A stretch of 21,274 nt of DNA from a virus: the IMG/VR virus record IMGVR_UViG_3300032560_000140, positions 1-21,274 of that record. One strand, written 5' to 3'. The notes beneath the pieces are model-generated. The model did no database searches. It was given only the letters and a program-made list of their open reading frames with translations, and was not told the origin of the DNA. The translations under genes and the position numbers were made by a program. This document shows positions 1 to 17,040 of the stretch, in pieces; positions within the stretch are counted from its first letter, which is position 1, and the number at the start of each line of letters is the position of its first letter.

Positions 1-1
1 A

Positions 2-625: not shown

Positions 626-662
626 TTGACGGCTTTAAGAGTACAGAGTTTAATATAAAAAC

Positions 663-690: not shown

Positions 691-780
691 ACAATTATTT
701 TGCATGGATAAAGGGAAAGTATCAGCCGATTAACCACTAAAGTCAAACCAAACGTCAATTATTTACAGGGAGTAAATTAC

Positions 781-1506: not shown

Positions 1507-1519
1507 TAGACATAAAAAA

Positions 1520-1561
1520 TTTAGCCCTTACGGAAACCCAGGGAGGACCGTAAGGGCTAAA
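1520..1561 (-). terminator. Strong hairpin terminator for the recombination operon
   Basis: A 14-bp perfect stem, TTTAGCCCTTACGG (1520-1533) with CCGTAAGGGCTAAA (1548-1561), encloses a 14-nt loop. On the minus strand it is followed directly by a run of six T (complement of the A run at 1514-1519). It therefore best terminates leftward transcripts coming from the recombination genes. It lies 13 bp after the convergent replication gene and could also protect that transcript's 3' end. Confidence 0.75.
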
Positions 1562-1603
1562 CATCAGCCATGATTAATTAACAATTTAGGATATTCCCGT
1601 TGA

Positions 1604-1656
1604 GCTAACCTAAAGGAGTTCTAGAAGCTCCTTTAGGCCAGGAGTAATCTGTTAGC
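1604..1656. other. Nested inverted repeat in the convergent intergenic region
   Basis: An inner 10-bp perfect stem, CCTAAAGGAG (1609-1618) with CTCCTTTAGG (1628-1637), has a 9-nt loop. It is enclosed by an outer pair, GCTAAC (1604-1609) with GTTAGC (1651-1656). No T run follows on either strand, so it is not a typical intrinsic terminator. The 1507-1714 gap contains only this and the terminator at 1520; I see no open reading frame in it. The role is unknown. Confidence 0.4.
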
Positions 1657-1714
1657 GGTCTTTCAAATCACTAATAGATCTAAGAATAAAAAAATGCAGG
1701 GTAATAGTAATATT

Positions 1715-2617: not shown

Positions 2618-3462
2618 TTTAATCCTCCTGCTTGATTATCTAATTCTTTCATTTTTGCCCAATTAGGTAATGATATTAATTGGAATTTTTCTTCATACCC
2701 AGGCCACTCTTTATACCTTACACATTCGGTATATAAAGCTGCGCCATCTAAGTATTCTAATCTGCCTTGTGCTAATGAGCTTTCGTCTAAAGTAAAGCAC
2801 GCTGTTAAATAAGGCGGCTTTTTCTCAACTACGAAAAAGGCAAAGAATCTTTTTTTACCATCTAATTGTTTTAATGCATCTATCTGCATAGCTGCTTGTC
2901 TATGATAGCCATACTGATAAATAGAATTTGAAAATGCTTTAATCGAATCAGTAGTTTTAAGGTCGATTATTAATTTATCATTAAAAATATCTGGTCTTGA
3001 TCTAAGTGGTGTATCAAATGTGCCACCTTCCCAAAATATAGATTGCTCAACTTTACCATCTTTAAGTTCATTCCAGATAGGATGAGCAGATATAACGTTA
3101 GCCATGTCTTTAATGTCTTCCCATTCACCAGTTCTTAAAATATCTCGTCCATTAGCTGCAATTTCAGCTTGTGCGTAAATCTCTTTACCAATCTTTGTAG
3201 ATAAATTCACTGATTCTGTCATACAATAAAAGGTATTATCGAATTTTTTAGGCTCCAATACAAGTGTATGAACAGCACGTCCTAGCTTATATTTTTCAGC
3301 TTGTTTCTTTAATTCTTTTTCGTCTAACTCTGTACGTTTTACGTGATATTCATAGTAATACCGTTTAGGACAATCTAGTATCAAATTGATACCAGTTGAG
3401 CTAATACTATTGTCTGCGTGATATTCGTTAATATCTAAATTGTCGTATATACCGTTTATCAT
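2572..3462 (-). CDS. RecE/exodeoxyribonuclease VIII-like PD-(D/E)XK exonuclease
   Basis: The product is 296 aa. The start at 3462 has AGGAG 8 nt upstream. Motifs of the RecE C-terminal nuclease family (DUF3799-type, PD-(D/E)XK fold) are present: an N-terminal SSTGINLILDCPKRYYYEY segment (about 21-39), GRAVH with His65, Glu139 (VEQS), R.RPD with Asp158, DLKT with Asp167 and Lys169, then YGYHRQAAM with Gln189. Asp158, Asp167 and Lys169 should form the metal site. The enzyme is expected to resect one strand of double-stranded DNA ends, leaving single strands for the annealing protein encoded next. Adjacency to Bet gives a RecE/RecT- or Exo/Beta-like recombination pair. It follows the small upstream ORF by 2 nt and shares its leader motif (GGAGAATAATAATG). 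Confidence 0.85.
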   Translation of the reverse strand: MINGIYDNLDINEYHADNSISSTGINLILDCPKRYYYEYHVKRTELDEKELKKQAEKYKLGRAVHTLVLEPKKFDNTFYCMTESVNLSTKIGKEIYAQAEIAANGRDILRTGEWEDIKDMANVISAHPIWNELKDGKVEQSIFWEGGTFDTPLRSRPDIFNDKLIIDLKTTDSIKAFSNSIYQYGYHRQAAMQIDALKQLDGKKRFFAFFVVEKKPPYLTACFTLDESSLAQGRLEYLDGAALYTECVRYKEWPGYEEKFQLISLPNWAKMKELDNQAGGLKCLAQMQSQLNQNKR

Positions 3463-3464
3463 TA

Positions 3465-3659
3465 TTATTCTCCTAGTAGTTCTAATCTATCGAATAAATC
3501 TTGTATTGCTTCTAATTCAGTAGCACCATTTCCGCAACAGTTATACTTTAGTACCGCATCTTCTGCCCCGTCGTAACCGTCGAGTACTGCGGTCCAATCA
3601 AATTGGCGTTGCGGGATCGGCGCACAGTAATAAGAAGTAAGTATGGTATGTTTTGGCAT
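3465..3659 (-). CDS. Small hypothetical protein, first gene of the recombination operon
   Basis: The product is 64 aa, starting at ATG 3659 (MPKHTILTSYY). AAGGAG lies 8 nt upstream; an in-frame start at 3698 has no comparable ribosome site. It has two adjacent cysteines (NCCGNGATELEAIQDLFDRLE) and a short acidic helix at the end, and I recognise no family. The pattern Y…G.GATELEAI..L resembles small single-domain phage proteins that begin with a strand pair and end in a helix. It is the promoter-proximal gene of the exonuclease-Bet operon, so it may modulate recombination (for example as an anti-nuclease), but nothing in the sequence proves this. Confidence 0.65.
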   Translation of the reverse strand: MPKHTILTSYYCAPIPQRQFDWTAVLDGYDGAEDAVLKYNCCGNGATELEAIQDLFDRLELLGE

Positions 3660-3708
3660 TATTATTCTCCTTCTTGTAATTTTTATGTTTTTGTGCAATA
3701 ATAACTAC

Positions 3709-3736
3709 ATTGTAATACAAAACGATACGATGTCAA
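3709..3736 (-). promoter_or_regulatory. Sigma70-type promoter for the recombination operon
   Basis: Reading leftward, a perfect -35 box TTGACA (3736-3731) is followed by a 16-bp spacer and a near-perfect -10 box TACAAT (3714-3709). The predicted start of transcription is near 3702, about 40 bp before the first gene's ATG at 3659. It lies in the divergent gap between this operon and the ribbon-helix-helix gene. Confidence 0.7.
3710..3720. promoter_or_regulatory. Palindromic candidate operator over the -10 region
   Basis: TTGTAATACAA is a perfect palindrome around a central A. It overlaps the -10 box and spacer of the leftward promoter. A repressor bound here would block the recombination operon. 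The adjacent divergent ribbon-helix-helix gene is the obvious candidate repressor; that link is inferred. Confidence 0.4.
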
Positions 3737-3752
3737 GAGGTGGTTTATAAAA

Positions 3753-3932
3753 ATGTTGGATAAAACAGAAAAAGAGCTATTAGGGCCAGGCTTAAGCGTG
3801 AGATTGACAGCTATAACGCGTAATAAATTAAGCGTACTTGCACGAAAAAGGGGTATGTCGCCATCTAGTTTGGCTAGATTTTGGCTGGAAGAAAGAATAA
3901 AAAAAGAAGATAATAATAAAAAAGGGGATTGA
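3753..3932 (+). CDS. Small ribbon-helix-helix (Arc/CopG-like) DNA-binding protein
   Basis: The product is 59 aa. ATG 3753 has GAGGTGG about 9 nt upstream. Residues 13-50 fit a ribbon-helix-helix fold: a short beta strand GLSVRLT, helix A (AITRNKLSVLARKRG), a turn MSPSS, and helix B (LARFWLEERIKKE). The tail is Lys/Asp-rich. Proteins of this type dimerise and insert the paired strands into the major groove of palindromic operators; Arc and Mnt of P22 are the classical phage examples. The gene diverges from the recombination operon, whose promoter carries an 11-bp palindrome, so it is a likely regulator of that operon. Its stop sits 2 nt before the next gene's start. Confidence 0.7.
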   Translation: MLDKTEKELLGPGLSVRLTAITRNKLSVLARKRGMSPSSLARFWLEERIKKEDNNKKGD

Positions 3933-3934
3933 TT

Positions 3935-4309
3935 ATGACAACAACAAATGCATTAGTTTATTACCACGAACTAGTTAAAGCCGGAATGCCGGACGAACAA
4001 GCTTTTAATCAAGCAATGGCATTTGATAATGCTATTAGTCATTTGGCAACGAAAGACGAGCTAAAAACAGAAATATTCTTACTAAGAAAAGATATACAGC
4101 GCATTGATACTAAATTACAAGATTTTGCGACTAAAGAAGAGCTAAAAACAGAAATATCCTTACTAAGAAAAGATCTTGAGGTAAGATTCTCTGAAATAGA
4201 TGCGAACTTTAAATTAATAGATGCTAATTTCGCCACTATGCGAATTTTTGGCTGGGCTATTATTGTTATTGTGATTGTACCGATTTCTAAGATAGTTTTT
4301 GGTTGGTAA
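3935..4309 (+). CDS. Coiled-coil membrane protein A (DUF1640-like)
   Basis: The product is 124 aa. I chose ATG 3935 over the in-frame TTG at 3929 because the AAGGGG site lies too close to the latter. The protein has a conserved N-terminal head (ALVYYHELVKAGMPDEQAFNQAMAF), the signature ATK.EL, a coiled coil (about residues 40-98) and one C-terminal hydrophobic helix (IFGWAIIVIVIVPISKIVFGW). This layout resembles DUF1640/CCDC90-type proteins. A 36-bp block, 4058-4093, repeats at 4139-4174 with one mismatch, duplicating ELKTEI.LLRKD. It is the first of five related proteins in the window and is immediately upstream of a second one. Expected location is the membrane with the coil in the cytoplasm; function is unknown. 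Confidence 0.75.
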   Translation: MTTTNALVYYHELVKAGMPDEQAFNQAMAFDNAISHLATKDELKTEIFLLRKDIQRIDTKLQDFATKEELKTEISLLRKDLEVRFSEIDANFKLIDANFATMRIFGWAIIVIVIVPISKIVFGW

Positions 4310-4330
4310 TATATAAAAATGGGGTTAAAG

Positions 4331-4693
4331 ATGACAAATAAAGCATTACAGTACTTTTTAGATTTAAAGGCTAATGGCGCAACAGATGCAGAAGCCAAAG
4401 CACAAACAGAGGCGCTGACCTCTGTATTAGAGGGCGTTGCGACTAAAGAAGATTTAAAAATTGTAAGAGAAGATTTATTGGCGACAAAAACAGAATTAAT
4501 TGCAAAGCTTGCGACTAAAGAAGAATTAACTAATTTAGGAATAAGAACTGACTCTAAATTTGATTTAGTTAGGAAAGACATACTAAACTTGGAGGATAGA
4601 ATAGACATTAATCATCGGTGGATCATGGCATTTTTAATAGCCAATTTTGTTGCGTTTGCAACATTAATTATAACTAATGCTATGCGAGTCTGA
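4331..4693 (+). CDS. Coiled-coil membrane protein B (DUF1640-like)
   Basis: The product is 120 aa. The start ATG 4331 is preceded by ATGGGG, which I read as the ribosome site rather than as a start; an identical arrangement precedes protein D at 8848. The head NKALQYFLDLKANGATDAEAKAQTEAL matches paralogues A, D and E. Two ATKE(D/E)L signatures follow and a coil extends to about residue 95. A terminal membrane helix (IMAFLIANFVAFATLIITNAM) follows. The 14-bp string GCGACTAAAGAAGA occurs once in A and twice here, showing recent common ancestry or conversion between the two genes. The 21-bp gap from A suggests a shared transcript. Confidence 0.75.
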   Translation: MTNKALQYFLDLKANGATDAEAKAQTEALTSVLEGVATKEDLKIVREDLLATKTELIAKLATKEELTNLGIRTDSKFDLVRKDILNLEDRIDINHRWIMAFLIANFVAFATLIITNAMRV

Positions 4694-4721
4694 ACTATAA
4701 TATAACAAGGAGGTTAATACT

Positions 4722-4961
4722 ATGAAATGCAGATGTACAAGCTGTAGTGGCAATAAAAAAATTATGAAACTAGGTATGGTAATGGGCGAGTGTGGAAACT
4801 GTAAAGGCACAGGCACGCAAACAATCGAAGATAGTATCATACCAGATGTAGCTAAACCAACAGACAAGGATGTCATCAATGACGCAAAAAGAGAAGAATC
4901 GCGAGAAGTTAAAAAAACAGATAGCAAAGTTACCTCCAATCAAACTAAGCGTAAAAGGTAA
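4722..4961 (+). CDS. Small Cys-motif protein (DnaJ-like zinc knuckle)
   Basis: The product is 79 aa, with an excellent ribosome site (AAGGAGG, 7 nt before the ATG). The first 35 residues contain C.C..C.G (Cys3, 5, 8) and C..CKGTGT (Cys24, 27). These resemble half of a DnaJ-type CXXCXGXG zinc-binding domain. The remainder is charged and probably disordered, ending in KRKR. Its last 83 nt overlap the start of the terminase small subunit gene in another frame. I do not recognise a specific family. Position suggests a packaging or late-regulation accessory protein, but that is inference from location only. Confidence 0.7.
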   Translation: MKCRCTSCSGNKKIMKLGMVMGECGNCKGTGTQTIEDSIIPDVAKPTDKDVINDAKREESREVKKTDSKVTSNQTKRKR

Positions 4962-5358
4962 ACACCCTGGCGGTAGACCAACGAAATACACCGAAGAATT
5001 AGCAAACCGTATCTGCGACGCTGTAGCTACAACAACTGATGGTATGCGACGCATGTGCGCCAACAACGAAGGTTTTCCAACATGTGAAACACTTATGCAA
5101 TGGCGCTATAAATATCCCGAGTTTTCTGCACATTACGCACAATCTAAGCTTATTCAGGCTGATTTATTCGCAGAACAAATTATAGATATTTGTGACGAAG
5201 AACAACACACCAGCGAAGGAATACAACACGCAAGACTTAGGGTTGACACTCGCAAATGGTTAACATCAAAACTAATACCAAAAACTTACGGCGACAGAGT
5301 TCATAGCGAATCAACAGTTAGTATTAAACATGAGGATGCATTGGAGCTTTTAAAATAA
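4879..5358 (+). CDS. Terminase small subunit
   Basis: The product is 159 aa, counting from ATG 4879, which sits 9 nt after ACAAGG; the in-frame ATG at 4870 abuts that site and is less likely. The family pattern is clear: GGRPTKYTEELANRICD, then MRRMCANNEGFPTCETLMQWR (helix-turn-helix DNA recognition), then F..HYAQSKLIQADLFAEQIIDICDE, then a region where R.DTRKWL…PK.YGD matches the usual C-terminal motif of terminase small subunits. It recognises phage DNA and recruits the large subunit for headful or site-specific packaging. The large subunit gene follows at 5926, separated by three small ORFs. The N-terminal 25 residues are very basic. Confidence 0.85.
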   Translation: MTQKEKNREKLKKQIAKLPPIKLSVKGKHPGGRPTKYTEELANRICDAVATTTDGMRRMCANNEGFPTCETLMQWRYKYPEFSAHYAQSKLIQADLFAEQIIDICDEEQHTSEGIQHARLRVDTRKWLTSKLIPKTYGDRVHSESTVSIKHEDALELLK

Positions 5359-5359
5359 A

Positions 5360-5497
5360 ATGTTCATCAATGATGCAGAAGTATATCACATAGCTGTAAT
5401 GCTATATGAATTTATGATGCCAGATGATGTCGATGCAACGCCAATTACTTTGGCAGAATTTAAACAAAAATTAGAAGGAATATTAAAGGATGGATGA
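5360..5497 (+). CDS. Tiny hypothetical protein after terminase small subunit
   Basis: A 45-aa frame begins 1 nt after the terminase small subunit stop (MFINDAEVYHIAVMLYEFM…). It is acidic and probably helical, with no recognised domain. The immediate spacing and its 8-nt overlap with the next small ORF are typical of packed phage operons. No good ribosome site is visible, so it would depend on translational coupling. Confidence 0.4.
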   Translation: MFINDAEVYHIAVMLYEFMMPDDVDATPITLAEFKQKLEGILKDG

Positions 5498-5636
5498 AGA
5501 GGAGGGTAAAATATGGGCTCGTTACTATAGCTGCCCTTGGTATGATTTAACTCCCGGCGAACAGGCAGTAATAATTAACTTTAGTAAAAATTGTGGGGTT
5601 AGCCACGTTATGTTCGACAGGTTTTTTACCAACTAA
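5490..5636 (+). CDS. Tiny hypothetical protein
   Basis: A 48-aa frame starts at ATG 5490 and overlaps the previous ORF by 8 nt (MDEEEGKIWARYYSCPWYDL…). AAAGG stands directly before the ATG, closer than usual. The composition (Trp/Tyr/Cys-rich, TPGEQAVIINF) looks protein-like rather than random, but no family is recognised. It fills the gap between the terminase small subunit and the sigma-like gene. Confidence 0.4.
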   Translation: MDEEEGKIWARYYSCPWYDLTPGEQAVIINFSKNCGVSHVMFDRFFTN

Positions 5637-5653
5637 AAAGGAATGGCTAGAGA

Positions 5654-5929
5654 ATGGGATACAATAGTACTAAGCATAATTTGGCAGCATTATTAGAACT
5701 AATTAATGAGTTTGTACAAGACAATCCTTTAAAAATAGAAGAATTGCCGGACTATCTTAAACAATTACCAGATAGAGAGCAGCAAGTATTAAACTTTTAT
5801 TATAGGGATGGACTCACCCTTAGAGAAATAGCTGAAATTTTTGGGGTGAGTTGGTCTCGGCCGTTTGAAATTAAAAGTAAGGCGATAAGAAGAATAAGAA
5901 AAAAAATTACAATAGCTAAAAACAAATGA
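5654..5929 (+). CDS. Sigma70 region 4-like HTH protein
   Basis: The product is 91 aa. Residues 38-83 closely follow the -35-recognition domain of sigma70/RpoD: LPDREQQVL (38-46), a loop YYRDG, the helix-turn-helix LTLREIAEIFGVSWSR (54-69) and a terminal KSKAIRRIRKK helix. The first 37 residues are an acidic helical segment unlike sigma region 3, and regions 2 and 3 are absent, so it is not a full sigma factor. It could bind promoter DNA as a late-gene activator or act as a small-terminase-like HTH. Its TGA overlaps the ATG of the terminase large subunit (ATGA at 5926), so the two are coupled. The pattern also resembles phage DUF1492/ArpU-type regulators, which sit just before terminase genes. 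Confidence 0.75.
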   Translation: MGYNSTKHNLAALLELINEFVQDNPLKIEELPDYLKQLPDREQQVLNFYYRDGLTLREIAEIFGVSWSRPFEIKSKAIRRIRKKITIAKNK

Positions 5930-8286
5930 CTGAAGACGAGATTAAAACACGCCAGCATTTAAAAGATAACTTTTTACATTATGCATCACGTTGTCTTAAA
6001 ATTCGCACTAAGCAAGGCGAGATTTCGCCGTTTATTTTAAATAAAGCGCAAGAATATATCCATCAGAAATTAGAAGAGCAAAGACTACAAACAGGTAAGG
6101 TTAGGGCGCTGATCTTGAAAGGGCGTCAGCAGGGCTGCTGTTTTTCACCAGACATGCGTGTACTAACATCTGACTATAGGTGGGTACCTATTGGCTCCAT
6201 TAATGTTGGCGACAAGCTGGTTAGTTGCGATGAAAACTCCGTAGGCTTTACTAAAATAGGGCGTAAACAATCAAGAAAATTCAGAACATCTACGGTAGAG
6301 GCCAAGGCAATTTTTTATAAGCCAACTTATGAAGTTTTATTTGATAATGGTGCACGGCTAAATGTAACGGCCGAACATCGAATGCTTAGCAAGCAAAGAG
6401 GGGGTTGCGAACAAAGGTGGCGACTCGTAGCGGACTTTAAGGTGGGCGATTATATTAGGATTGCAACAAGGCCACCAAACTATAAATCTAGTTATGAAGA
6501 CGGATGGATGGGAGGATTGATTGACGGCGAAGGAAGTATGAGGGGCAAAAATGGCGGAACAAAAAGAGTTAGTATACACCAGATTGCTGGGCCAATTTTA
6601 GACAGGATAAAGGCATATTTCAAAAACATTGATATGCCATATTGCGAGGTGTTGGATCGCCGAACTTCGGGGGTAAGCAGTAAGCTTGGGGATAAGCCAG
6701 TACATCGCCTAGATATACACAGATTACCGTACATAATAGAGTTATTTTCAAGATGTAGGCCAACAAGATTTACTAATGATGAGTGGCATTTGGGACACGA
6801 GTTACCTGGCAAAGCAGCTACAGACGGTATTAAACCTTGGGCAAAAATAATTAAAATAACTCCTTTAAAAAAACAAAAAGTTATCGACTTACAAACTAGC
6901 GAAAAGACGTATATGTGCGAAGGACTAGTGTCGCATAACTCAACTTATGTGGGCGGACGCTTCTATCATAAGACCACCCATAATAAGGGTACACAATGCT
7001 TTATCTTAACACATGCACTGGATGCTACCAACAACCTATTTAAAATGGCTCAGCGTTTTTACCAGAACACGCCAAACTTAGTTCAGCCCGATATCAGTAC
7101 TAACAACTCTAAAGAGCTAATCTTTGGGCGCTTAGATAGTGGATATAAACTAGGAACAGCCGAAAACAAAGCGGTCGGTCGTTCCAGCACCATCCAATTA
7201 TTCCATGGCTCGGAGATTGCTTTTTGGGCAAACGCCCAAGAACATACTAAGGGTATACTGCAAGCGGTGCCTGATTCTACTGGTACAGAAATCATACTGG
7301 AATCTACCGCTAATGGTGTCGGTAATTATTTCCATCAAATGTGGCAGAAAGCAGAAAGCGGCATGTCTGATTTTATTGCGGTATTCGTGCCTTGGTTTTG
7401 GCAAGAAGAATATAAAAGGTCAGTGCCGCCAGACTTTAAACCTAACCATATAGAGTTACGTTTAATTGAAGCTTATCGGTTAACCTTAGAGCAAATAGCT
7501 TGGCGGCGATTTAAAATTACTGATTTATCAGTTAACGGTCAAGACGGGGAGAAGAGCTTTTGCCAGGAATATCCATGTAATCCCAATGAAGCTTTCCAAC
7601 TTAAAGGTGAGAATTCATTTATAGATTCCTCAACAGTGATGCGTGCCAGAAAAGGAGAAGCCGAAAAATATGGGCCTTTAATTATGGGCGTTGACCCTGC
7701 AAGATTTGGTGATGATCGCACATCAATTATCTTTAGGCAAGGCCGTGTGGCATTTGGGTTACAAAGTTATACTAAGAAAGACACAATGGAGGTAACTGGC
7801 ATTGTTCATTCTTTGATTGAACAATATCGGCCTTTAAAGGTCTTTGTAGATGTGGGCGGCTTAGGAGCTGGGGTTGTAGATAGGCTAAATGAATTAGGCC
7901 ATAAAGAGGCCGTAGTTGCGGTTAACGCGGGTTCAAAAAGCTTAGATGATCAGAAGTATTCAAATAAGCGAGCTGAAATGTGGGGCAAATGTGCAAATTG
8001 GTTAGAGGATATCCCAGTACAAATACCAGATACAGACAGCTTACATGCGGATTTATGTGGAATACGCTATAGTTTTGATTCCAACTCTAGGTTAGTTATG
8101 GAGAAAAAGGAGGACATGAAAAAGAGGGGAATAAGATCGTCAGACGAAGCAGACGCGCTTTGTTTAACTTTTGCTTATCCTGTAACAGCATTTAGGGAAC
8201 AGCCCAACCCAAACGCACCAATACTTAAATCATTGGCACAAGATTTTAATACTAAACTGACAGCCATTAGGAGATCTAGGAAATAA
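5926..8286 (+). CDS. Terminase large subunit (packaging ATPase/nuclease) containing an intein
   Basis: The gene encodes 786 aa, of which 519 remain after removal of residues 72-338 as an intein. The host protein is the DNA-packaging motor. Its ATPase P-loop is LKGRQQGC|STYVGG, interrupted between Cys71 and Ser339. The Walker B acid is Glu430 in GSEIAFW and motif III is ESTANG (459-464). The C-terminal RNase H-like nuclease has Asp590 (GVDPARFGDD), Asp642 (VFVDVGG) and Asp743 (SDEADAL). All key residues are present, so the spliced protein should be active. The lysine of the P-loop is Lys65, the displaced position common in terminases (K.RQ.G.ST). The gene is coupled by a 4-nt overlap to the sigma-like gene. 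No terminator is seen before the convergent cassette 9 bp downstream. Confidence 0.92.
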   Translation: MTEDEIKTRQHLKDNFLHYASRCLKIRTKQGEISPFILNKAQEYIHQKLEEQRLQTGKVRALILKGRQQGCCFSPDMRVLTSDYRWVPIGSINVGDKLVSCDENSVGFTKIGRKQSRKFRTSTVEAKAIFYKPTYEVLFDNGARLNVTAEHRMLSKQRGGCEQRWRLVADFKVGDYIRIATRPPNYKSSYEDGWMGGLIDGEGSMRGKNGGTKRVSIHQIAGPILDRIKAYFKNIDMPYCEVLDRRTSGVSSKLGDKPVHRLDIHRLPYIIELFSRCRPTRFTNDEWHLGHELPGKAATDGIKPWAKIIKITPLKKQKVIDLQTSEKTYMCEGLVSHNSTYVGGRFYHKTTHNKGTQCFILTHALDATNNLFKMAQRFYQNTPNLVQPDISTNNSKELIFGRLDSGYKLGTAENKAVGRSSTIQLFHGSEIAFWANAQEHTKGILQAVPDSTGTEIILESTANGVGNYFHQMWQKAESGMSDFIAVFVPWFWQEEYKRSVPPDFKPNHIELRLIEAYRLTLEQIAWRRFKITDLSVNGQDGEKSFCQEYPCNPNEAFQLKGENSFIDSSTVMRARKGEAEKYGPLIMGVDPARFGDDRTSIIFRQGRVAFGLQSYTKKDTMEVTGIVHSLIEQYRPLKVFVDVGGLGAGVVDRLNELGHKEAVVAVNAGSKSLDDQKYSNKRAEMWGKCANWLEDIPVQIPDTDSLHADLCGIRYSFDSNSRLVMEKKEDMKKRGIRSSDEADALCLTFAYPVTAFREQPNPNAPILKSLAQDFNTKLTAIRRSRK
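6139..6939 (+). mobile_element. Intein with LAGLIDADG homing endonuclease motif in the terminase P-loop
   Basis: A 267-aa in-frame insertion (residues 72-338 of the terminase). It starts with Cys72 in block A (CFSPDMRVLTSDYRWVPIGSI, then NVGDKLVS). Block B is NVTAEH with Thr148 and His151. It ends with KVIDLQTS…YMCEGLVSHN, whose His337-Asn338 is followed by Ser339 as the +1 nucleophile. These are the residues needed for standard protein splicing. Between the splicing blocks lies one clear LAGLIDADG-type motif, GGLIDGEGS (residues 196-204), with acidic Asp200. A second copy is not obvious, so the endonuclease may be a homodimeric single-motif type or degenerate. Splicing restores the P-loop GRQQGCST. 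Confidence 0.9.
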
Positions 8287-8295
8287 GTTTTTATT

Positions 8296-8523
8296 TTACC
8301 ACCAATGTTTTACACTATTTAGAATCATGGTTAACATAAAAGCAAGAGTAGAAACATTTAGGGCAATTAATACATTTAATCTAGTTTTTATACCTCCTAT
8401 TTCGCCTTTTATACCCTCTATTTCGCCTTTTATACCCTCTATTTTGCCGTTTATTTTAGCTTCAAAATGCAGAAGCTCGGCCTCTATTAAGTTTAAACAA
8501 TAATTTAATGCTGTATTATCCAT
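8296..8523 (-). CDS. Coiled-coil membrane protein C (short paralogue)
   Basis: The product is 75 aa. The head (NTALNYCLNLIEAEL) is a shortened form of that in A, B, D and E and lacks the ATK.DL signature. The coil is made of nearly identical heptads (G.IEGIK repeated three times) encoded by 21-bp tandem repeats. A C-terminal membrane helix follows (LNVLIALNVSTLAFMLTMIL). It is transcribed against the virion genes, 22 bp after protein D, and its stop lies 9 bp from the end of the terminase gene. Function is unknown. Confidence 0.65.
   Translation of the reverse strand: MDNTALNYCLNLIEAELLHFEAKINGKIEGIKGEIEGIKGEIGGIKTRLNVLIALNVSTLAFMLTMILNSVKHWW
8386..8448. repeat. Three 21-bp tandem repeats encoding coiled-coil heptads
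   Basis: Units at 8386-8406, 8407-8427 and 8428-8448 follow TTTTATACCCTCTATTTCGCC with at most two changes. Because 21 bp is exactly seven codons, each unit adds one heptad (GEIEGIK-type) to the coil of protein C without changing its register. Confidence 0.9.
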
Positions 8524-8545
8524 CTATATATCCATAATGTTTCTT

Positions 8546-8848
8546 TTAAAACTTCCCGAAATACTTTAATATTACCCCTACAATAATCGGAGCATAAATA
8601 AATCCTAAGATTGAATATACCATAAAATACTTTAATTCAGATTTAACTTCTTTAATGTCACTTTTTAACTCAGTTCTCAATGCTTTAATCTCGGCCTTTA
8701 CATCTTTAATCTCGGCCTTCAAGTCAGATTTAGTTGCCAAACCTTGTAACATACTTTCTAATGCAATAAGCTGGGCTTCGGCTTGTTCCTCTGGAACTCC
8801 GCTTGCTTTTAAATCTTTTAGATATTGTATAACCCTAGCGCTATCCAT
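8546..8848 (-). CDS. Coiled-coil membrane protein D (DUF1640-like)
   Basis: The product is 100 aa. The start at 8848 (MDSARVIQYL) has GGGGA about 7 nt upstream; an in-frame ATG at 8860 overlaps that site and is less likely. The head (RVIQYLKDLKASGVPEEQAEAQLIAL) and ATKSDL signature match paralogues A, B and E. The coil alternates KAEIK.V / KAEIKAL / ELKSDIKEV units and is followed by a terminal hydrophobic helix (FMVYSILGFIYAPIIVGVIL). It is the promoter-proximal gene of a two-gene minus-strand cassette placed between terminase and portal. This location and orientation are typical of a phage moron, expressed independently of the late operon. Confidence 0.75.
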   Translation of the reverse strand: MDSARVIQYLKDLKASGVPEEQAEAQLIALESMLQGLATKSDLKAEIKDVKAEIKALRTELKSDIKEVKSELKYFMVYSILGFIYAPIIVGVILKYFGKF

Positions 8849-8879
8849 ATATATCCCCATTTTATAGTTATTTCCTTAG

Positions 8880-8908
8880 ATTTTACTATACTAAAAACTT
8901 AGATACAA
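8880..8908 (-). promoter_or_regulatory. Possible promoter of the C/D cassette
   Basis: Reading leftward, TTGTAT (8908-8903), a 17-bp spacer and TAAAAT (8885-8880) give a moderate sigma70 match. The predicted start near 8873 lies 25 nt before the D start codon. An imperfect inverted repeat (CTTAGATAC … GTATCTATCTAAG, about 8898-8926) overlaps the -35 side. Confidence 0.35.
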
Positions 8909-8955
8909 GGAATGTATCTATCTAAGTAGTTCAACCACCATGAAAAGGATTTCAA

Positions 8956-11070
8956 ATGGTCGCTAAAAAGCACACGGATAAGTTAAACGAAATTAAAAAA
9001 AATATTGAGCAAGCGCACGAATATTTTATAAAGAATGTTAATCGCTTTAATGACTTTATGAAGTTTGTCTTCCAGACTTCGTTGTCATCGGACGATATCA
9101 CAAAATTAGATGTACTACAAAAGCCAGCAATAGAATTTAATATCTTAGAGGCGATGATATCAAGACTCAGGGGCGAATTCGCCAAACAAGAACCATCCAT
9201 AGTAGCTCGGGCGGCTGATGGTGTTAGGATAGAAGAGCTGACCCCTGAGTTTTTACAAACATTAGAAATAATTGAGGCGCATTTACGCGAGATTTTCTTT
9301 GATGCCTCGAATGATGCATTAGAGTATAACATTTACTCTGATTTATTGGCTGGCGGCTATTCTGTTGTTTATGTTTATACAGGATATATTAATGAACTGT
9401 CGTTTGAGCAAAACATTAAGGTGGAGCGAGTATTTGATCCAACTTTAACGGGCTTCGATCCTTTAGCAAGAGAATCGCATAAGGGTGACGGCAATTACTG
9501 CTTTCAATTAATTCCTAAATCAAAAGAAGACTTTGAGGAAGAATTCGGCAAAGGTTCAGCTGATAATATGAAGTTTGAAAGATCGAGCGCAGTAGGGGAT
9601 TTTAATTGGAGCTATTTAAATCAAGATCAAGAAATCATACTGGTTGCTGATTATTACTGCAAGAAGAAGAAGAAAGAAAAGATAGTTAAACTTTCCAATG
9701 GTCATACTATTGTTAAAAAGCATTATGAAGAATTCCTTAAACTATGGGGAAATCAAGGCTTTATTGAACAAGCTCCCGTTGTTATAGATGAAAGGGAAAC
9801 TATTATAGAGACAATCGACAGATATATGGTTTGTGAAGATAAAGTACTATCCCACGAAGAAACACCGTATAAATTTCTCCCATTAGTATTTATTGACGGC
9901 AATAGTGTTGTAATTAGAGAAAACGAAGATGGTGCATCAATGCAGATGACACGGCCTTTTGTTTATCATGCTAAAGGTGTACAACAACTTAAAAACTTCT
10001 CAGGACAGACCGTTGCTGCCGAAATTGAAAATATGGTACAACATAAATTCATGGTGGCTGTAGAGTCCATCCCTGAAGACTACGCTGATGCTTATAAGAA
10101 CGTACAGCAAGCATCTACATTAGTTTATAACGCATTTTACAAAGATAATCCAGAACAACCTTTACCTCCTCCAAGAGAAGTTCAACGAACTCCTACTCCT
10201 GACATTGTTAATATGACTTTTATGGGAACCGATCAAGTTACCCAAACTATATTAGGTACGTACGATTCCATATTAGGAACTAACGATAAGCAAATATCAG
10301 GGGTCGCCATTCAGCAAGGCGCTATGCAATCTAATGCTGCCGCTATTCCTTATTTACAGGGATATATTAGAGGATTAAATAGGGTTGCTCAAATAGTTGT
10401 TGACTTAATTCCTAAGTATTATGTAACGCCTAGAAGTTTACCGGTAAAGGCACCTGACGGTAAGCGCTCTTATCAAATTATTAATCACCCAAACAATCCC
10501 AATAGTGTAGACTTTAGCTACAACCCAAATAGTTTACAGATTAAGGTAGAAGCAGGTGTTAGTAGCGCAGTACAAAAACAAGTTGCATTAGATCAAATAA
10601 TTAGAATGATGCAATCCAGTCAATTGTTTGCCGAATTTATTAATACCATGGGGCTAGAGACTATCCTAGATAACATGGATATTAGAGGCATTGAGGGTCT
10701 CAAAGCTCAAGCCGTTCAGTTTATGAAGCAATTAGAAGAACAAAAAGCACAACAGGCCCAGCAAGGTAACCCAGAAGAAACAGCAATGCGCGAGCAAACC
10801 GAGGCTATTAAAGAAATTGAGATGGCTAAGATTCAGCAACAACAACAAAAACAAGAGGGGGAGCTGGCTATTCAAGCCGCTAAAGTTGCTAATGAAAAAA
10901 CCCTAACTGACGTTAAGTTTATGCAGATTATGGCGCAAATTAATCAGAATCAAACCAAACTTGGAATTGAACAAGAAAAGGTTGACTCTGAAAATGCTAG
11001 AACTGCAATTGAGCAAGCAATGCAACATGTTCAAAATTTACGGAAAAATGTAGAGGATAATCACAAATAG
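8956..11070 (+). CDS. Portal protein, P22 gp1-like
   Basis: The product is 704 aa, close to the 725 aa of P22 gp1. The start has AAAAGGA 7 nt upstream. The N-terminal region (AHEYFIKNVNRFNDFMKFVF … LQKPAIEFNILEAMISRLRGEFAKQEPSI) and the middle portion (FQLIPKSKEDFEEEFGK, IDRYMVCED, KFLPLVFIDG) follow the P22-type portal pattern. TGTYDSILGTNDKQISGVAIQQGAMQSNAA matches the segment before the stem/clip region. The last 110 residues are a Gln/Glu/Lys-rich helical stretch like the long barrel of P22 portal. Twelve copies form the vertex through which terminase pumps DNA. It follows terminase but is separated from it by a reverse-strand cassette. Confidence 0.85.
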   Translation: MVAKKHTDKLNEIKKNIEQAHEYFIKNVNRFNDFMKFVFQTSLSSDDITKLDVLQKPAIEFNILEAMISRLRGEFAKQEPSIVARAADGVRIEELTPEFLQTLEIIEAHLREIFFDASNDALEYNIYSDLLAGGYSVVYVYTGYINELSFEQNIKVERVFDPTLTGFDPLARESHKGDGNYCFQLIPKSKEDFEEEFGKGSADNMKFERSSAVGDFNWSYLNQDQEIILVADYYCKKKKKEKIVKLSNGHTIVKKHYEEFLKLWGNQGFIEQAPVVIDERETIIETIDRYMVCEDKVLSHEETPYKFLPLVFIDGNSVVIRENEDGASMQMTRPFVYHAKGVQQLKNFSGQTVAAEIENMVQHKFMVAVESIPEDYADAYKNVQQASTLVYNAFYKDNPEQPLPPPREVQRTPTPDIVNMTFMGTDQVTQTILGTYDSILGTNDKQISGVAIQQGAMQSNAAAIPYLQGYIRGLNRVAQIVVDLIPKYYVTPRSLPVKAPDGKRSYQIINHPNNPNSVDFSYNPNSLQIKVEAGVSSAVQKQVALDQIIRMMQSSQLFAEFINTMGLETILDNMDIRGIEGLKAQAVQFMKQLEEQKAQQAQQGNPEETAMREQTEAIKEIEMAKIQQQQQKQEGELAIQAAKVANEKTLTDVKFMQIMAQINQNQTKLGIEQEKVDSENARTAIEQAMQHVQNLRKNVEDNHK

Positions 11071-11081
11071 AAATTAGCTTT

Positions 11082-11315
11082 ATGAAAGAAAAAACTACTA
11101 CTACTGAAACTACAGCACGAATTAATAAATTGCTCGAGCTAAAAAAGAATCACTCTTTAACTACTTTTGACAAAAGAGAATTAAATAATTTGTTGTCTCA
11201 GATGGCAAAAAATACCAAACGAGACAGAGCTAGAAGCGGTAGGGCTTGGGCGCGTGGCAGCATCGATAGAATTAATTGTCCTGGCACTGTGCTTAATGGG
11301 GAAGTAATAGAGTAA
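11082..11315 (+). CDS. Hypothetical protein downstream of portal
   Basis: The product is 77 aa, basic, with a helical segment (INKLLELKKNHSLTTFDKRELNNLLSQMAKN) followed by an Arg-rich stretch (KRDRARSGRAWARG) and a short C-terminal strand. No domain is recognised. It begins 11 nt after the portal stop with no clear ribosome site. The basic tail suggests nucleic-acid or virion contact, which is inference only. Confidence 0.5.
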   Translation: MKEKTTTTETTARINKLLELKKNHSLTTFDKRELNNLLSQMAKNTKRDRARSGRAWARGSIDRINCPGTVLNGEVIE

Positions 11316-11375
11316 ACTTATTGCAAAACAATTTAATTTAATGCGATACTCTAAGGAATAGAATAGGGAAATTAT

Positions 11376-11537
11376 ATGATAACTAAATCGCGTACTTTCC
11401 CACCGCTAAAGCCCCTTGCTTTGATTACGTTAGCAGAATATGAAGCACTTGAGTTGAAGCAAGATTTAGATTATAAAAATCTTTTAGTTGATGCTAAATT
11501 TGAAGCGGAAAGAGGAAAATTATTTTTAAAGGAGTAG
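11376..11537 (+). CDS. Small hypothetical protein
   Basis: The product is 53 aa (MITKSRTFPPLKPLALITLAEYEALEL…). ATG 11376 has AGGGAA 5 nt upstream, and the frame ends in AAGGAGTAG, so its last codons carry the ribosome site of the next gene. It has a Pro-rich start and a charged helical rest. No family is recognised. Confidence 0.6.
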   Translation: MITKSRTFPPLKPLALITLAEYEALELKQDLDYKNLLVDAKFEAERGKLFLKE

Positions 11538-11540
11538 AAA

Positions 11541-11756
11541 ATGTCAAAACTAACTACTAAAGCCAGAAAGAGATTAAAACCAAAAGAATTTGCGCTACCT
11601 AAATCACGTAAATATCCAGTACCAGATAAGGCTCATGCTAAAAATGCTAAAGCTCGTGCATCTGAGATGGAACATAAAGGCAAGATATCTAAAGCAACAG
11701 AAGAAAAGATAGACGCTAAGGCTAATAAGGTTCTTAAGGGAAAGAAAAATAAATGA
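11541..11756 (+). CDS. Small basic phage protein (DUF6582-like pattern)
   Basis: The product is 71 aa with a strong ribosome site (AAGGAG, 6 nt before the ATG). The pattern LKPKEFALPKSRKYPVPDKAHAKNAKARASE, followed by GKIS..TEEKIDAKANKVL, is one I associate with small DUF6582-type proteins common in phage structural regions and in bacteria. The name is from memory of the pattern and should be treated as tentative. It is lysine-rich throughout and predicted soluble. Its stop overlaps the next start (ATGA). Confidence 0.65.
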   Translation: MSKLTTKARKRLKPKEFALPKSRKYPVPDKAHAKNAKARASEMEHKGKISKATEEKIDAKANKVLKGKKNK

Positions 11757-11959
11757 AAAACGAAGATGAACTTGTACCTGTAATAACTGAAAAACCCGAA
11801 GAAGAAAAGGTAATCGAGATTGCAGAGGATTCAGTTATTCTTACGGATTATGCGCTTAGTGAGAGTGAGCTTGCAGAATTTCACCGAGAATCCTCAGTTG
11901 AATATTGGCGAACTATAGAATTACCGCCCTCGCCTAAATATAAACCTGGCGCCCCATAA
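11753..11959 (+). CDS. Small acidic hypothetical protein
   Basis: The product is 68 aa and strongly acidic (EKPEEEKVIEIAEDS), with a Pro-rich end (PPSPKYKPGAP). Its start overlaps the preceding basic protein's stop by 4 nt, so the two are translationally coupled. The opposite charges suggest the pair could interact. No family is recognised. Confidence 0.6.
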   Translation: MKNEDELVPVITEKPEEEKVIEIAEDSVILTDYALSESELAEFHRESSVEYWRTIELPPSPKYKPGAP

Positions 11960-11983
11960 ATTTTAACAAACAAGGAGAGTACT

Positions 11984-12337
11984 ATGCCTACAGATAATCA
12001 ACCTAAAAGCATTACGACTGTATTGAATAAACTTAAAGCCGAACTACACGAAGCTATGGCTAATTTCCATGCTAAAATAGATGCCATTGGACATCATGTT
12101 GAGGCCGAAGCACCTAAGATTGAATCCGATGTTGCTAGCGCAGTTTCCAATATTCAGCCAGAAGTTAATGAAGCCGTTAATGCGCTAGCAGCGGTTGAAC
12201 CAGTCGTTAATACTGTAATAGGAGTTGCTGCACCTGAAGCATTACCTATTGTTGAGGGCGTTGAAAGCGCTGTATCTACAGTAGCTAGCGTGGTTGACGC
12301 TCCTAATTCGCCAGCTAAAAAAAAGCTTAGAATATAG
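11984..12337 (+). CDS. Amphipathic helical protein
   Basis: The product is 117 aa with a good ribosome site (AAGGAG, 7 nt before the ATG). The N-terminal half is a helix (LNKLKAELHEAMANFHAKIDAIGHHVEAEAP). The rest is Ala/Val/Glu-rich with repeating VEP/VEG.ESAVS turns, and the end is basic (PAKKKLRI). It has no true membrane helix. It is the last gene of the portal cluster; a strong terminator begins 8 bp after its stop. It could be a minor virion or scaffolding accessory protein, but the sequence does not decide this. Confidence 0.6.
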   Translation: MPTDNQPKSITTVLNKLKAELHEAMANFHAKIDAIGHHVEAEAPKIESDVASAVSNIQPEVNEAVNALAAVEPVVNTVIGVAAPEALPIVEGVESAVSTVASVVDAPNSPAKKKLRI

Positions 12338-12345
12338 TATTAAGC

Positions 12346-12390
12346 GCATATACACTAACATAAATTATTAGTGTATATGCTATTTTTTAT
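12346..12390 (+). terminator. Strong intrinsic terminator of the portal cluster
   Basis: A 13-bp perfect stem, GCATATACACTAA (12346-12358) with TTAGTGTATATGC (12368-12380), encloses a 9-nt loop and is followed by TATTTTTTAT. This is the clearest terminator in the window. It implies that scaffold and coat need a promoter further downstream, or antitermination. Confidence 0.8.
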
Positions 12391-12394
12391 CATT

Positions 12395-12417
12395 GATTAT
12401 ACAGTTACTGTATAATC
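12395..12417. promoter_or_regulatory. Perfect palindrome abutting a start codon
   Basis: GATTATACAG (12395-12404) and CTGTATAATC (12408-12417) form a 10-bp perfect inverted repeat around TTA, ending right at ATG 12418. It contains TATAAT at 12411-12416. It may be an operator, a second hairpin behind the terminator, or a -10 element for an internal start. Confidence 0.5.
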
Positions 12418-12618
12418 ATGCAGAAAGATGATTGGGCAACAGAAGATTTTATAACGTACGAGGTTTTAATTATTTTAGAAGCACGCATAGAAAAGTCCAT
12501 AGAAATTGCAATCAATTTACTAAATGCTGGGGTTAGTCCTGAGATAATAAGTAAATGCGTAGGATTATCTCTAGAAGAAATAGAAGAATTACCAAGATAT
12601 GAAGGGCGCACTTACTAA
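12418..12618 (+). CDS. 66-aa protein resembling the C-terminal tail of Rpn/PD-(D/E)XK transposase-like proteins
   Basis: The stretch IEIAINLLNAGVSPEIISKCVGLSLEEIEEL matches the tail typical of recombination-promoting nuclease (Rpn, YhgA-like) proteins, where iA..LL..G.s.e.I...tGLs.eEI..L is a recurring end. The nuclease domain is absent. The first 30 residues (DDWATEDFITYEVLIILEARIEKS) are a helical lead-in. No ribosome site is visible before ATG 12418, which directly follows a palindrome. It may be a remnant, a leaderless gene, or a small standalone protein that binds a full-length Rpn. It stands alone between two terminator-like hairpins. Confidence 0.45.
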   Translation: MQKDDWATEDFITYEVLIILEARIEKSIEIAINLLNAGVSPEIISKCVGLSLEEIEELPRYEGRTY

Positions 12619-12664
12619 TTTTCTTTTATTGTACTAATATACAAATATTCATATTAAATATCCT

Positions 12665-12697
12665 AGCCGCTAATGATTTGAACAACCGTTAGCGGCT
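12665..12697 (+). terminator. Hairpin terminator between convergent genes
   Basis: A 9-bp perfect stem, AGCCGCTAA (12665-12673) with TTAGCGGCT (12689-12697), encloses a 15-nt loop and is followed on the plus strand by TTCTTTAT. It separates the 66-aa ORF from VapD, which is read from the other side. The minus-strand T run is poor. Confidence 0.65.
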
Positions 12698-12716
12698 TTC
12701 TTTATATTATTATCGA

Positions 12717-13007
12717 TTATGTATGGTTTTTAACTATTACTGTAAAATCTGACCAGTCTTCTACTTTGAAAGCTCTAATGTCTCTTACTGAAAGCCTAAA
12801 CCAGTCTATATTAGATAATATTCTAATTGCTTCATAAAGGTGGGATAAGGTGTTAGCGTCTTCTTTTGTAGTATAAAGACTCCCTTGTTTCCATTCAAAA
12901 CCTACTTCTTCCAATTCTTTGGAAATTTCCGTATAAGCACCATTATAGGGTTCGCCATAATGCTTTTTTAGATCGTCAATTTTTAAATCAAATGCTATTG
13001 CGTACAT
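12717..13007 (-). CDS. vapD: VapD-family ribonuclease (virulence-associated protein D)
   Basis: The product is 96 aa, the usual VapD length. It starts at ATG 13007 with AAGGA about 6 nt upstream; a longer in-frame start at 13070 would add residues that overlap the upstream gene and do not match the family. The hallmark MYAIAFDL with Asp7 opens the protein. It continues [39 protein letters not shown], then the conserved [17 protein letters not shown]. VapD has a Cas2-like ferredoxin fold and, in characterised members, cleaves RNA as a homodimer and can act as the toxin of a toxin-antitoxin pair. The gene lies 10 bp after coiled-coil protein E on the same strand, so they are likely co-transcribed. 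It is reverse to the virion genes, typical of a lysogenic-conversion cargo gene. Confidence 0.88.
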
Positions 13008-13017
13008 ACTAAAGTCC

Positions 13018-13299
13018 TTAATGGAAAAACAATACTTTAACTGTTCCGCCAGCAAGAGCCAAGAGACCACCCCACATAAATTTACGGATGTCGCCTTTTA
13101 TTTCTTTTACGTCTGCCTTTAATTCTTTTACGTCTGCCTTTACGCCGTTTAAATCTTCTTTTACGCTGGTTAAATCTTCTTTTGTAGCCACATGATCTAA
13201 TGCAGAATTTAAAGCATAGGTTTGGGTTCTGGCTTGTTCCTCTGGAACTCCCCCAGCTTTTAGTTCTTCAAAAAATTTTAATGTATTAATATGTTCCAA
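13018..13299 (-). CDS. Coiled-coil membrane protein E (DUF1640-like), upstream of vapD
   Basis: The product is 93 aa from a TTG start at 13299, which has AGGGGGG 7 nt upstream and begins exactly where the paralogues begin. An ATG at 13374 in frame would lie upstream of the predicted promoter. The head ([27 protein letters not shown]), ATKEDL signature, coil of [14 protein letters not shown] heptads and C-terminal hydrophobic helix ([19 protein letters not shown]) match protein D closely. It ends 10 bp before vapD. As the partner gene of a toxin-like ribonuclease it could be an antitoxin, a membrane anchor or an unrelated member of the same cassette; none of these is shown by sequence. Confidence 0.75.
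13097..13182. repeat. Two pairs of 21-bp repeats in the coil of protein E
   Basis: Units 13097-13117 and 13118-13138 agree at 20 of 21 positions; units 13141-13161 and 13162-13182 agree at 19 of 21. Each unit encodes one heptad ([14 protein letters not shown]-type and [14 protein letters not shown]-type). This mirrors the 21-bp repeats in protein C. Confidence 0.85.
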
Positions 13300-13320
13300 T
13301 TTATTGCCCCCCTTTTTAAC

Positions 13321-13349
13321 ATTATACCTATCTAACAAACTATAAACAA
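13321..13349 (-). promoter_or_regulatory. Promoter of the protein E-vapD cassette
   Basis: Reading leftward, TTGTTT (13349-13344), a 17-bp spacer and a perfect TATAAT (13326-13321). Transcription would start near 13314, 15 nt before the TTG start codon at 13299 and just in front of its AGGGGGG ribosome site. This supports both the start-codon choice and independent expression of the cassette. Confidence 0.6.
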
Positions 13350-13410
13350 GCACTAGAATTGCCGCGACTAACATAAATCACATTAAATAACAAGCCCCTA
13401 CAAAAAATAC

Positions 13411-13474
13411 TTTCACGGCTAATATCACGGCTAATTTCACAGTTATCCACAAAACCCTGTGCAAAATTTGCACA
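13411..13474. promoter_or_regulatory. Repeat and palindrome cluster upstream of scaffold
   Basis: In the 258-bp gap between protein E and scaffold lie three tandem 12-bp units (TTTCACGGCTAA 13411-13422, TATCACGGCTAA 13423-13434, TTTCACAGTTAT 13435-13446). These run into an exact DnaA box TTATCCACA (13443-13451). A perfect 17-bp palindrome, TGTGCAAAATTTGCACA (13458-13474), follows. TTGCAC inside the palindrome with TAGAGT 17 bp later is a weak candidate rightward promoter. The layout suggests a regulated promoter for the scaffold-coat operon. No ORF is seen here. Confidence 0.45.
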
Positions 13475-13557
13475 AATCTAGAACGTGAACTAGAGTTAAA
13501 TTACTAGGTTTATACAGGATGTAGAAACTTAGGTTCCTACCGAGCCATCGGGTATAA

Positions 13558-14319
13558 ATGGTCGCGAACTCAGCGCATGAGGTTATTTTACCGTCACGGG
13601 GAAATAGTGGGTTTATGGATGATATAGAAGCTTCAGGGATCGAAGCGCCAGCTACTGAAAGTGAACCTGAAAAGACACTACCAGTTAGCAAGGTGAATGA
13701 CATTGTTAAACGGGAAAAAGCCCATGTTGCTGAACGCGTGCGTCAACAGATGCAAGCCGAGTATCAGGCAGAACTTGAAAAGATTCGTGCTGAATCTGCT
13801 GTACAACCAGCGGCTACGGGCGAAAACTATACCTCCGAAATTGAACGGCGAGTATATGACAAGCTCATGCAGGATTTGCAAAAGCATCGTGATGAGGTTG
13901 AAAGAAAAGCTCAGGAAGATGAGTTAAAGACAATTGCTGATCAGTACTACCTTAAAATGGGTAAAGGCTCTCAGCTATTTGAAGACTTTAACGAAGTCAT
14001 GGGTGATTTTGAACCTGATAAATTTCCCAATGCTGTAATACTAGCAGCTCAAATGGAGAATACGCCAGAGATTATGTATGAACTGGCTAATAACCCATCG
14101 AAGTTGTTAGAAATAGATTCGCTAGCTAAGACCTCGCCTAAATTGGCGACAAAACAGCTAGAACGTTTATCGAAATCGATAAGCCAGAATCTAGAAGCAA
14201 AAACCAACAATGTTAGTGCCCCTCCTCCTTTATCAAAACTTAAATCTTCTTCGGTCGGTATGGATAGCGGCAAGATGACGTTGAAGGATTTTAAGAACGC
14301 TCCTTGGTTGAAAGGCTAA
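13558..14319 (+). CDS. Scaffolding protein
   Basis: The product is 253 aa. A stop codon directly precedes ATG 13558; the ribosome site is weak and ATG 13615 (MDDIEASG) is a plausible alternative start. The composition is that of podovirus and siphovirus scaffolds: acidic N-terminus, long charged coiled coil (VKREKAHVAERVRQQMQAEYQAELEKI … EVERKAQEDELKTIADQYYLKMGKG), Pro/Ser linker (SAPPPLSKLKSSS) and a conserved-looking end (LKDFKNAPWLKG). It lies directly before the coat gene, as gp8 does in P22. It templates procapsid assembly and leaves before DNA packaging. The P22 counterpart is 303 aa, so this one is somewhat shorter. Confidence 0.75.
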   Translation: MVANSAHEVILPSRGNSGFMDDIEASGIEAPATESEPEKTLPVSKVNDIVKREKAHVAERVRQQMQAEYQAELEKIRAESAVQPAATGENYTSEIERRVYDKLMQDLQKHRDEVERKAQEDELKTIADQYYLKMGKGSQLFEDFNEVMGDFEPDKFPNAVILAAQMENTPEIMYELANNPSKLLEIDSLAKTSPKLATKQLERLSKSISQNLEAKTNNVSAPPPLSKLKSSSVGMDSGKMTLKDFKNAPWLKG

Positions 14320-14389
14320 AGATCGTTAACCTCTAACTATATTGCCATGTCTTTACCTGGATTAACTCTAGATAAAGGGAAATTTTACC

Positions 14390-15637: not shown

Positions 15638-15710
15638 ATATGTGTCCAAACTTTATTTTTCATGGATTTAAAGATATAGTGAATTTCTTTAAATTGCAAG
15701 AGAAATATTT

Positions 15711-16268: not shown

Positions 16269-16286
16269 TTTAAAAGGAAGAATGTT

Positions 16287-17027: not shown

Positions 17028-17040
17028 GGAGCACTTGTCC

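Follow-up and report, generated by a model that had tools for sequence, protein, structure and literature searches.

Divergent DUF1640/CCDC90-related proteins occupy several slots of a P22/Sf6-like phage and exchange their stalks and anchors

Introduction

The DUF1640/CCDC90 family (PF07798) spans phages to human mitochondria and includes MCUR1, CCDC90B, the yeast proteins Put6 and Put7 and prokaryotic membrane proteins. In the DUF1640 membrane proteins, the stalk starts with a β-layer motif (an aliphatic residue, A-T-K, a polar residue, then D or E) that is trimeric in crystal structures (PMC4786415). Put6 and Put7 assemble into a single hetero-oligomer, and MCUR1 acts as a scaffold for a transporter (PMC7519068); among bacterial and phage members, we found none whose role is established. 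Two other phage-associated systems bear comparison: the Borrelia cp32 plasmid-prophages, with up to two bdr genes each that encode inner-membrane proteins of unknown function (PMC10016077), and SieA of P22, a superinfection-exclusion protein that acts at the inner membrane (PMC10883804). Here we analyse a 21,274-bp stretch of viral DNA from IMG/VR record IMGVR_UViG_3300032560_000140 (hereafter the window), in which five genes, A–E, encode small proteins that appear to be divergent relatives of DUF1640/CCDC90.

A preliminary description of the window, made from the sequence alone, knew of no phage system built from such a set. This has to be tempered, since DUF1640 genes have been annotated in APSE and Megaira phages and Borrelia cp32 carries bdr. 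Phage DUF1640 genes as such are thus known; a set that occupies many slots and exchanges modules is new as far as our searches show.

Six family members in one phage genome

The window belongs to a P22/Sf6-like podovirus, with matches to the P22 portal (PF16510, 1.5e-75), the Sf6 terminase small subunit (TerS), RecT and a DUF3799 nuclease, and with further structural genes for scaffold, coat and head-closure proteins. It is 99.9% identical to a 39,544-bp record of a near-complete phage, G001, which it overlaps at both ends (window 1–13939 to G001 13939–1, and window 13690–21274 to G001 39544–31961), as it should if the genome is circular or circularly permuted.

The five open reading frames lie in three separate loci that include both strands, as the preliminary description had placed them. 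A (3935–4309, + strand; 124 aa) has a head (residues 1–37), an LATKDE neck, a long stalk with a second such element, FATKEE, and a C-terminal hydrophobic anchor. B (4331–4693, +; 120 aa) has a head, two necks (VATKED, between head and stalk, and LATKEE), a stalk and a C-terminal anchor. D (8546–8848, −; 100 aa), antisense between the genes for the terminase large subunit (TerL) and the portal, consists of head, LATKSD neck, stalk and anchor, and its neighbour C (8296–8523, −; 75 aa) is without head and neck and retains heptad repeats and anchor. E (13018–13299, −; 93 aa) starts with TTG and has a head, a VATKED neck, a heptad-repeat stalk and an anchor; we rejected as unlikely a longer version of E (118 aa, with a hydrophobic segment at its N-terminus) because a promoter-like site, a site resembling a ribosome-binding site and the TTG start all fall inside it. 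All five are thus real, and the genome holds a sixth copy, F, outside the window and directly after the lysis genes (G001 17968–18225), so that five is not the full count.

The head that A, B, D and E had been said to share was borne out by a head-only hidden Markov model (HMM) built from 16 paralogues of other phages and run against all open reading frames of the window. It matched E (E-value 1e-20), D (5.7e-13), A (1.3e-12) and B (4.3e-11); the portal came next at 0.32, and C scored 8.7. The kinship of the four thus exceeds that of a chance coiled coil. The description of C as having a reduced head was also right, and the loss is derived: its orthologue in sister-phage loci L005, L006, L007, L018 and L024 has a full head and an LATKGEL neck (head HMM 2.4e-10). 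DNA alignment with the intact copy of the relative G002 (12040–12312) shows that C of the window keeps the first approximately 10 and last approximately 38 residues, with an array of 21-bp, heptad-encoding repeats between them; the tandem repeat lies at 8386–8454.

Relation to DUF1640/CCDC90

PF07798 is the top Pfam match for E (23.1 bits, 7.4e-5), D (22.1 bits, 1.6e-4) and B (16.2 bits), all below the curated cut-off of 33.5 bits, and a search of A and C with the same family gave no match; no member in the window therefore belongs to PF07798 by its cut-off. For calibration, P47 of APSE scores 34.8 bits, two Megaira proteins 34.8 and 33.7, a Methylocapsa protein 56.5 and two Legionellales proteins 32.4 and 32.1. 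An alignment of 27 members of the phage family gave a superfamily-level profile link (hhalign probability 98.3, E 1.5e-14, 77 columns) to an alignment of P47, two Megaira proteins, one Methylocapsa and one Shewanella protein, the first four of which lie above the PF07798 cut-off and the last of which was outside that scan. The crystal construct of CCDC90B (6h9m) was matched by profile search only at E 0.25.

The A-T-K signature pointed out in the preliminary description is the published trimeric β-layer neck of DUF1640/CCDC90 membrane proteins; it stands between head and stalk in A, B, D and E, is missing from C and is present as LATKGE in the intact orthologue of C. An AlphaFold2 model of E (pLDDT 77.7, pTM 0.36) predicts helices at residues 7–16, 21–36 and 41–93, with a break exactly at VATK. 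Foldseek comparison of this model with the PDB returned chance helical matches and no significant one, and so gave the fold no independent confirmation. Two further groups of profile matches were rejected: those to designed pentatricopeptide proteins in the PDB are sums of short repeat matches, and PHROG matches to entries for holin, spanin, scaffold or tail fibre seem to reflect the coiled coil.

Together, the Pfam scores below the cut-off, the profile link, the A-T-K motif and the model of E lead us to classify the set, by sequence, as divergent DUF1640/CCDC90-related proteins that are not formal Pfam members. The likeness first suggested was right in kind and falls short of formal membership. 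The published β-layer structures suggest that the products are trimers, and their hydrophobic C-termini suggest that they insert into the membrane.

Copy number and genomic slots

A survey of relatives, which the preliminary description had proposed, found the family in seven phages with three to seven copies each (G001, 6; G002, 6; G003, 7; G004, 4; G009, 6; G010, 5; G017, 3), and not in the long records of the more distant relatives G005–G008 and G013. Five slots are used: between TerL and portal; between a ribbon-helix-helix (RHH)-like gene and TerS (slot 2); between portal or VapD and scaffold; between ejection protein and tail fibre (slot 4); and at lysis. The slots fall between complete structural modules, and the members are mostly antisense. 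Slot 4 holds antisense members in G002, G003, G004, G009, G010 and G017, and F is kept at the lysis slot in G001–G004 with few changes. The ejection protein is identified from gene order, with no match in PHROGs, and the lysis genes from gene layout and hydrophobic segments, with no family match. In G001, an SPFH/Band 7 gene (HflC/HflK-like; 29247–30194, +, equivalent to 9547–10494 of L122) stands where relatives have CCDC90-like genes.

Presence of the family follows the relatedness of the portal across 55 loci with a portal start, most of them fragments in which absence is weak evidence. At portal identities of at least 92%, the family is present in 22 of 22 loci, and the antisense copy between TerL and portal in all 21 with enough sequence. 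At 69–79% identity the family occurs in four of nine loci, never in the TerL/portal slot; at 56–62% in none of eight; and at 49% or below in one of 16. This sole case, L064 (E 1.7e-7), is headless and could be a spurious coiled-coil match.

Many dispersed copies are a general trait of the family, bacterial chromosomes included, and not peculiar to phages. The family occurs in 8 of 143 Legionellales genomes, two of which (G027 and G028) have six to seven copies, and in 45 of 399 sampled Pseudomonadota genomes, many with at least 11–12 copies, with the qualification that some chromosomal matches fall within long or ill-defined frames and could be spurious. Some Pseudomonadota genomes (G181, G189, G220, G296 and others; L214–L233) have at least 12 dispersed DUF1640/CCDC90-like matches.

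Exchange of stalk and anchor

In three slots, a constant head is joined to different stalks and anchors, with the break at the neck. When orthologous slots are compared at the DNA level, the heads are 91–99% identical and identity then drops to 41–47%. By eye, the break falls at codons 37–42, the ATKxDL neck, for A (compared with G003, G004 and G010), B (with G002) and D (with G003); an automated threshold puts it at codons 33–37, since identity is averaged over windows of sequence. The G003, G004 and G010 copies of A are chimeras with the head of A and a B-like stalk and anchor (70–76% identity over 110–187 nt), and between B and its G002 copy the head is 100% identical and the anchor 38%. 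Stalk length varies by heptads (21 bp) or by 18-residue repeats, and D and E have an exact 21-nt stretch of the head in common.

Expression signals and plasmid carriage

Promoter-like sequences recur upstream of family genes. Just upstream of the TTG start of E lie AAGGGGGG and a TATAAT box (13321–13326, −; approximately 20 bp from the start), read from the sequence as promoter-like, and TTGACA-17-TATAGT precedes the slot-4 genes of G003 and G004. A leader near D, TTTTTAGTATAGTAAAAT, also precedes the slot-4 copies of G002 and G010. A perfect inverted repeat in the promoter region of D, AGATACA-N5-TGTATCT (8901–8919), is also found upstream of D in sister phages and is a possible operator. Across the seven phages, near-consensus sigma-70 sites (at least 10 of 12 consensus bases) precede 6 of 32 family genes and 3 of 183 others (Fisher p = 4e-4, an optimistic value because the sequences are related). 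The RHH-like open reading frame (3753–3932, +; 59 aa), assigned by sequence pattern and the first gene of an RHH–A–B run, is conserved upstream of slot-2 copies in relatives and is probably a local regulator; it has no match in Pfam, NCBIfam or PADLOC.

The phage is probably a phage-plasmid that persists in its host as a plasmid. G001 encodes a ParA-like protein (phrog_164, 4.5e-39) and a Rep-like protein with a weak phrog_428 match (2e-4) and tblastn relatives in Piscirickettsia, Legionella and Bdellovibrio plasmids; these, with a HigA-like gene and YefM/YoeB genes, suggest stable carriage. It also has the SPFH/Band 7 gene, and no integrase was recognised among the G001 proteins scanned, a subset of its genes. 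The antisense or intermodule position of the family genes, their own promoters and the probable plasmid carriage together suggest that the genes are expressed during carriage, outside the lytic cycle.

As to the host, we dropped an assignment by portal relatives in metagenome-assembled genomes, as their phyla are inconsistent, and one to Legionellales, as the genomes there with a related portal lack the family.

Superinfection exclusion as a leading, tentative function

We tentatively favour a role for the set as accessory (moron) proteins in superinfection exclusion. This reading follows from the membrane anchoring, the turnover and the position of slot 4, which we take to be that of sieA in the P22 gene order, between the ejection-protein and tail genes. 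Each product would comprise a small two-helix cytoplasmic head, an ATKxDL β-layer neck that fixes the trimer, a stalk of heptad repeats that varies in length and, at the C-terminus, a helix in the inner membrane. Expressed during carriage from promoters of their own (in slot 4 at least), the trimers would modify the inner membrane and, like SieA in P22, keep the DNA of related phages from entering. Competition with phages that circulate alongside would then account for the several copies, the turnover by slot and the replacement of stalks and anchors behind an unchanged head. Of the functions first guessed for the set, exclusion is the one best supported, by genome position and expression signals.

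Several observations weigh against this reading. The sieA-like slot of the window's own phage is filled by the SPFH gene, which is not a family member. A promoter scan of the window alone was not above shuffles, and the enrichment appears only across relatives. The family shows no sequence relationship with the PADLOC defence models (a lone LmuB match at 0.0087 was dismissed as coiled coil) and has no match to a SieA family; SieA itself, to our knowledge, does not have the layout of a coiled coil with a tail anchor, and P22 manages with a single exclusion protein of the SieA type. Further, some bacteria carry at least 12 chromosomal relatives in surroundings that show nothing phage-like, which rules out exclusion as the general function of the family.

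In a more speculative form, which we think improbable, exclusion would be combinatorial: constant heads would be recombined at the β-layer neck with changing stalk–anchor modules, and hetero-trimers would decide which phages enter. Each carried phage would then give its host a distinct set of hetero-trimers, an undescribed form of exclusion built on the MCUR1/CCDC90 architecture. The natural swaps of head and anchor in constant slots provide a ready comparison set for separate roles of the two parts, and could also show whether the family controls passage across the membrane.

Alternative explanations

The chromosomal relatives suggest a different role, in which the phage proteins mix or compete with DUF1640/CCDC90-type membrane proteins of the host and tune membrane transport or metabolism during carriage. 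Put6–Put7 and MCUR1 would be the precedents, and several heads would match several host partners, as might be present in genomes with six to seven (Legionellales) or at least 11–12 (many of the positive Pseudomonadota) members; a head that stays constant within a slot while the anchor changes also looks as if it binds a fixed partner. We nevertheless consider this unlikely, if less so than the explanations that follow: no host genome was found with both the phage clade and the family, and the chromosomal copies resemble those of the phages only remotely. The same chimeras of tandem copies (head of A, tail of B), together with the length changes in heptad units and the headless C, could instead reflect largely neutral genes that are readily duplicated and exchanged and persist through recombination, not through a function in common. 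That all 47 distinct family sequences are intact open frames, and that the antisense TerL/portal member is kept in each of the 21 close relatives noted above, makes such neutrality doubtful. An effect on lysis timing, with some members as holin regulators, would suit F, conserved directly after the lysis genes in G001–G004, and holin regulation is possible for short membrane-anchored proteins. It would account for one copy only, the remaining slots being distant from the lysis genes and, for the most part, antisense to the late genes; F has no holin family match and other members show weak coiled-coil matches only, and we rate this explanation as quite improbable.

Two others appear to us very unlikely. 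One is that members act on a eukaryotic cell that harbours the bacterial host, as in lysogenic conversion of an intracellular bacterium: the best phage matches are in endosymbiont phages (APSE, phiSG1 and Megaira) and the Rep relatives are in intracellular bacteria, but the anchor should keep the proteins in the inner membrane of the bacterium, and many genomes of a size typical of free-living bacteria contain chromosomal relatives. The other, which we hold to be no more probable, makes the members partners in toxin–antitoxin modules, as membrane-tethered antitoxins or sensors, E with VapD and A and B with the RHH-like protein. A VapD-family gene of Cas2-like nuclease fold (12717–13007, −; NCBIfam NF041506 4.2e-13, below its cut-off; PADLOC Cas2 model 9e-11) lies 10 bp downstream of E and is probably co-transcribed with it. 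The pair recurs in G011/G012, on an unrelated phage backbone, and VapD has a CCDC90-like neighbour in L183, L185 and L187, and likewise in L179/L180. Against this, none of ten VapD loci in the 399 Pseudomonadota genomes has a CCDC90-like neighbour, a published census of the genes beside VapD lists VapX, VapY and VapW and no others (PMC11980593), and most family copies have no adjacent toxin. With the pairing seen in two cassettes and at none of the ten genomic loci, we rejected E as a VapD antitoxin and keep it as a lead only.

Other features of the window

TerL contains an in-frame intein of approximately 800 bp (6139–6938, +) in its Walker A region (QQGC / S-TYVGG), with C as first residue and HN as the last before S. 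It is absent at the equivalent site of relatives with 96–97% identity, such as G002, which suggests a recent gain or loss. Between the coat gene and the next gene, a stretch at 15640–16290 (+) is present in G002 and missing from G003 and G004; its open reading frame (15711–16268) is probably of HNH type by sequence pattern, with no Pfam match, and resembles a free-standing homing-type insertion. A small open reading frame directly before TerL (5654–5929, +) has a sigma-70 region 4 domain (PF04545, 2.5e-12) and is a possible late-gene regulator. A 24-bp tandem repeat of 2.3 copies lies within an HTH_36 gene (1191–1246).

Comparison with known systems

Borrelia Bdr resembles the phage set in its plasmid-prophage context, variable repeat stalk, C-terminal anchor, reported inner-membrane association and more than one copy per element. 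It differs in that the ATK β-layer was not seen in four Bdr proteins. Homology, suggested by a plasmid search, was rejected: tblastn matches are weak (E 0.02–0.7) and confined to stalk and anchor, and the hhalign probability of 62.5 covers 12 anchor columns only. In Borrelia turcica lp27, a bdr gene lies between phage TerL and portal (L141, 1375–1782), the same slot as that of C and D.

P22 SieA is like the slot-4 members in being an inner-membrane product of a P22-like phage encoded at what is presumably the same ejection/tail position. It differs as a single gene of proven function (PMC10883804), with no sequence relation seen. VapD toxin–antitoxin systems are similar in that VapD lies directly downstream of E, and differ in that VapX, VapY and VapW, the partners described for VapD, have other folds (PMC11980593), E being CCDC90-like and not of their type.

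The closest systems remain those of the DUF1640/CCDC90 family itself. P47 of APSE and the DUF1640 proteins of Megaira phages or plasmids are likewise phage- or plasmid-borne and match over head, neck, stalk and anchor; they differ in having one copy per stretch examined, scores above the Pfam cut-off and other genome positions. With the family at large, from MCUR1 and CCDC90B to Put6, Put7 and the prokaryotic membrane members, the phage set has in common a two-helix head, an ATKxDL neck, a coiled-coil stalk and a single C-terminal anchor, and it is set apart by scores below the cut-off, very short stalks and several exchangeable copies per phage.

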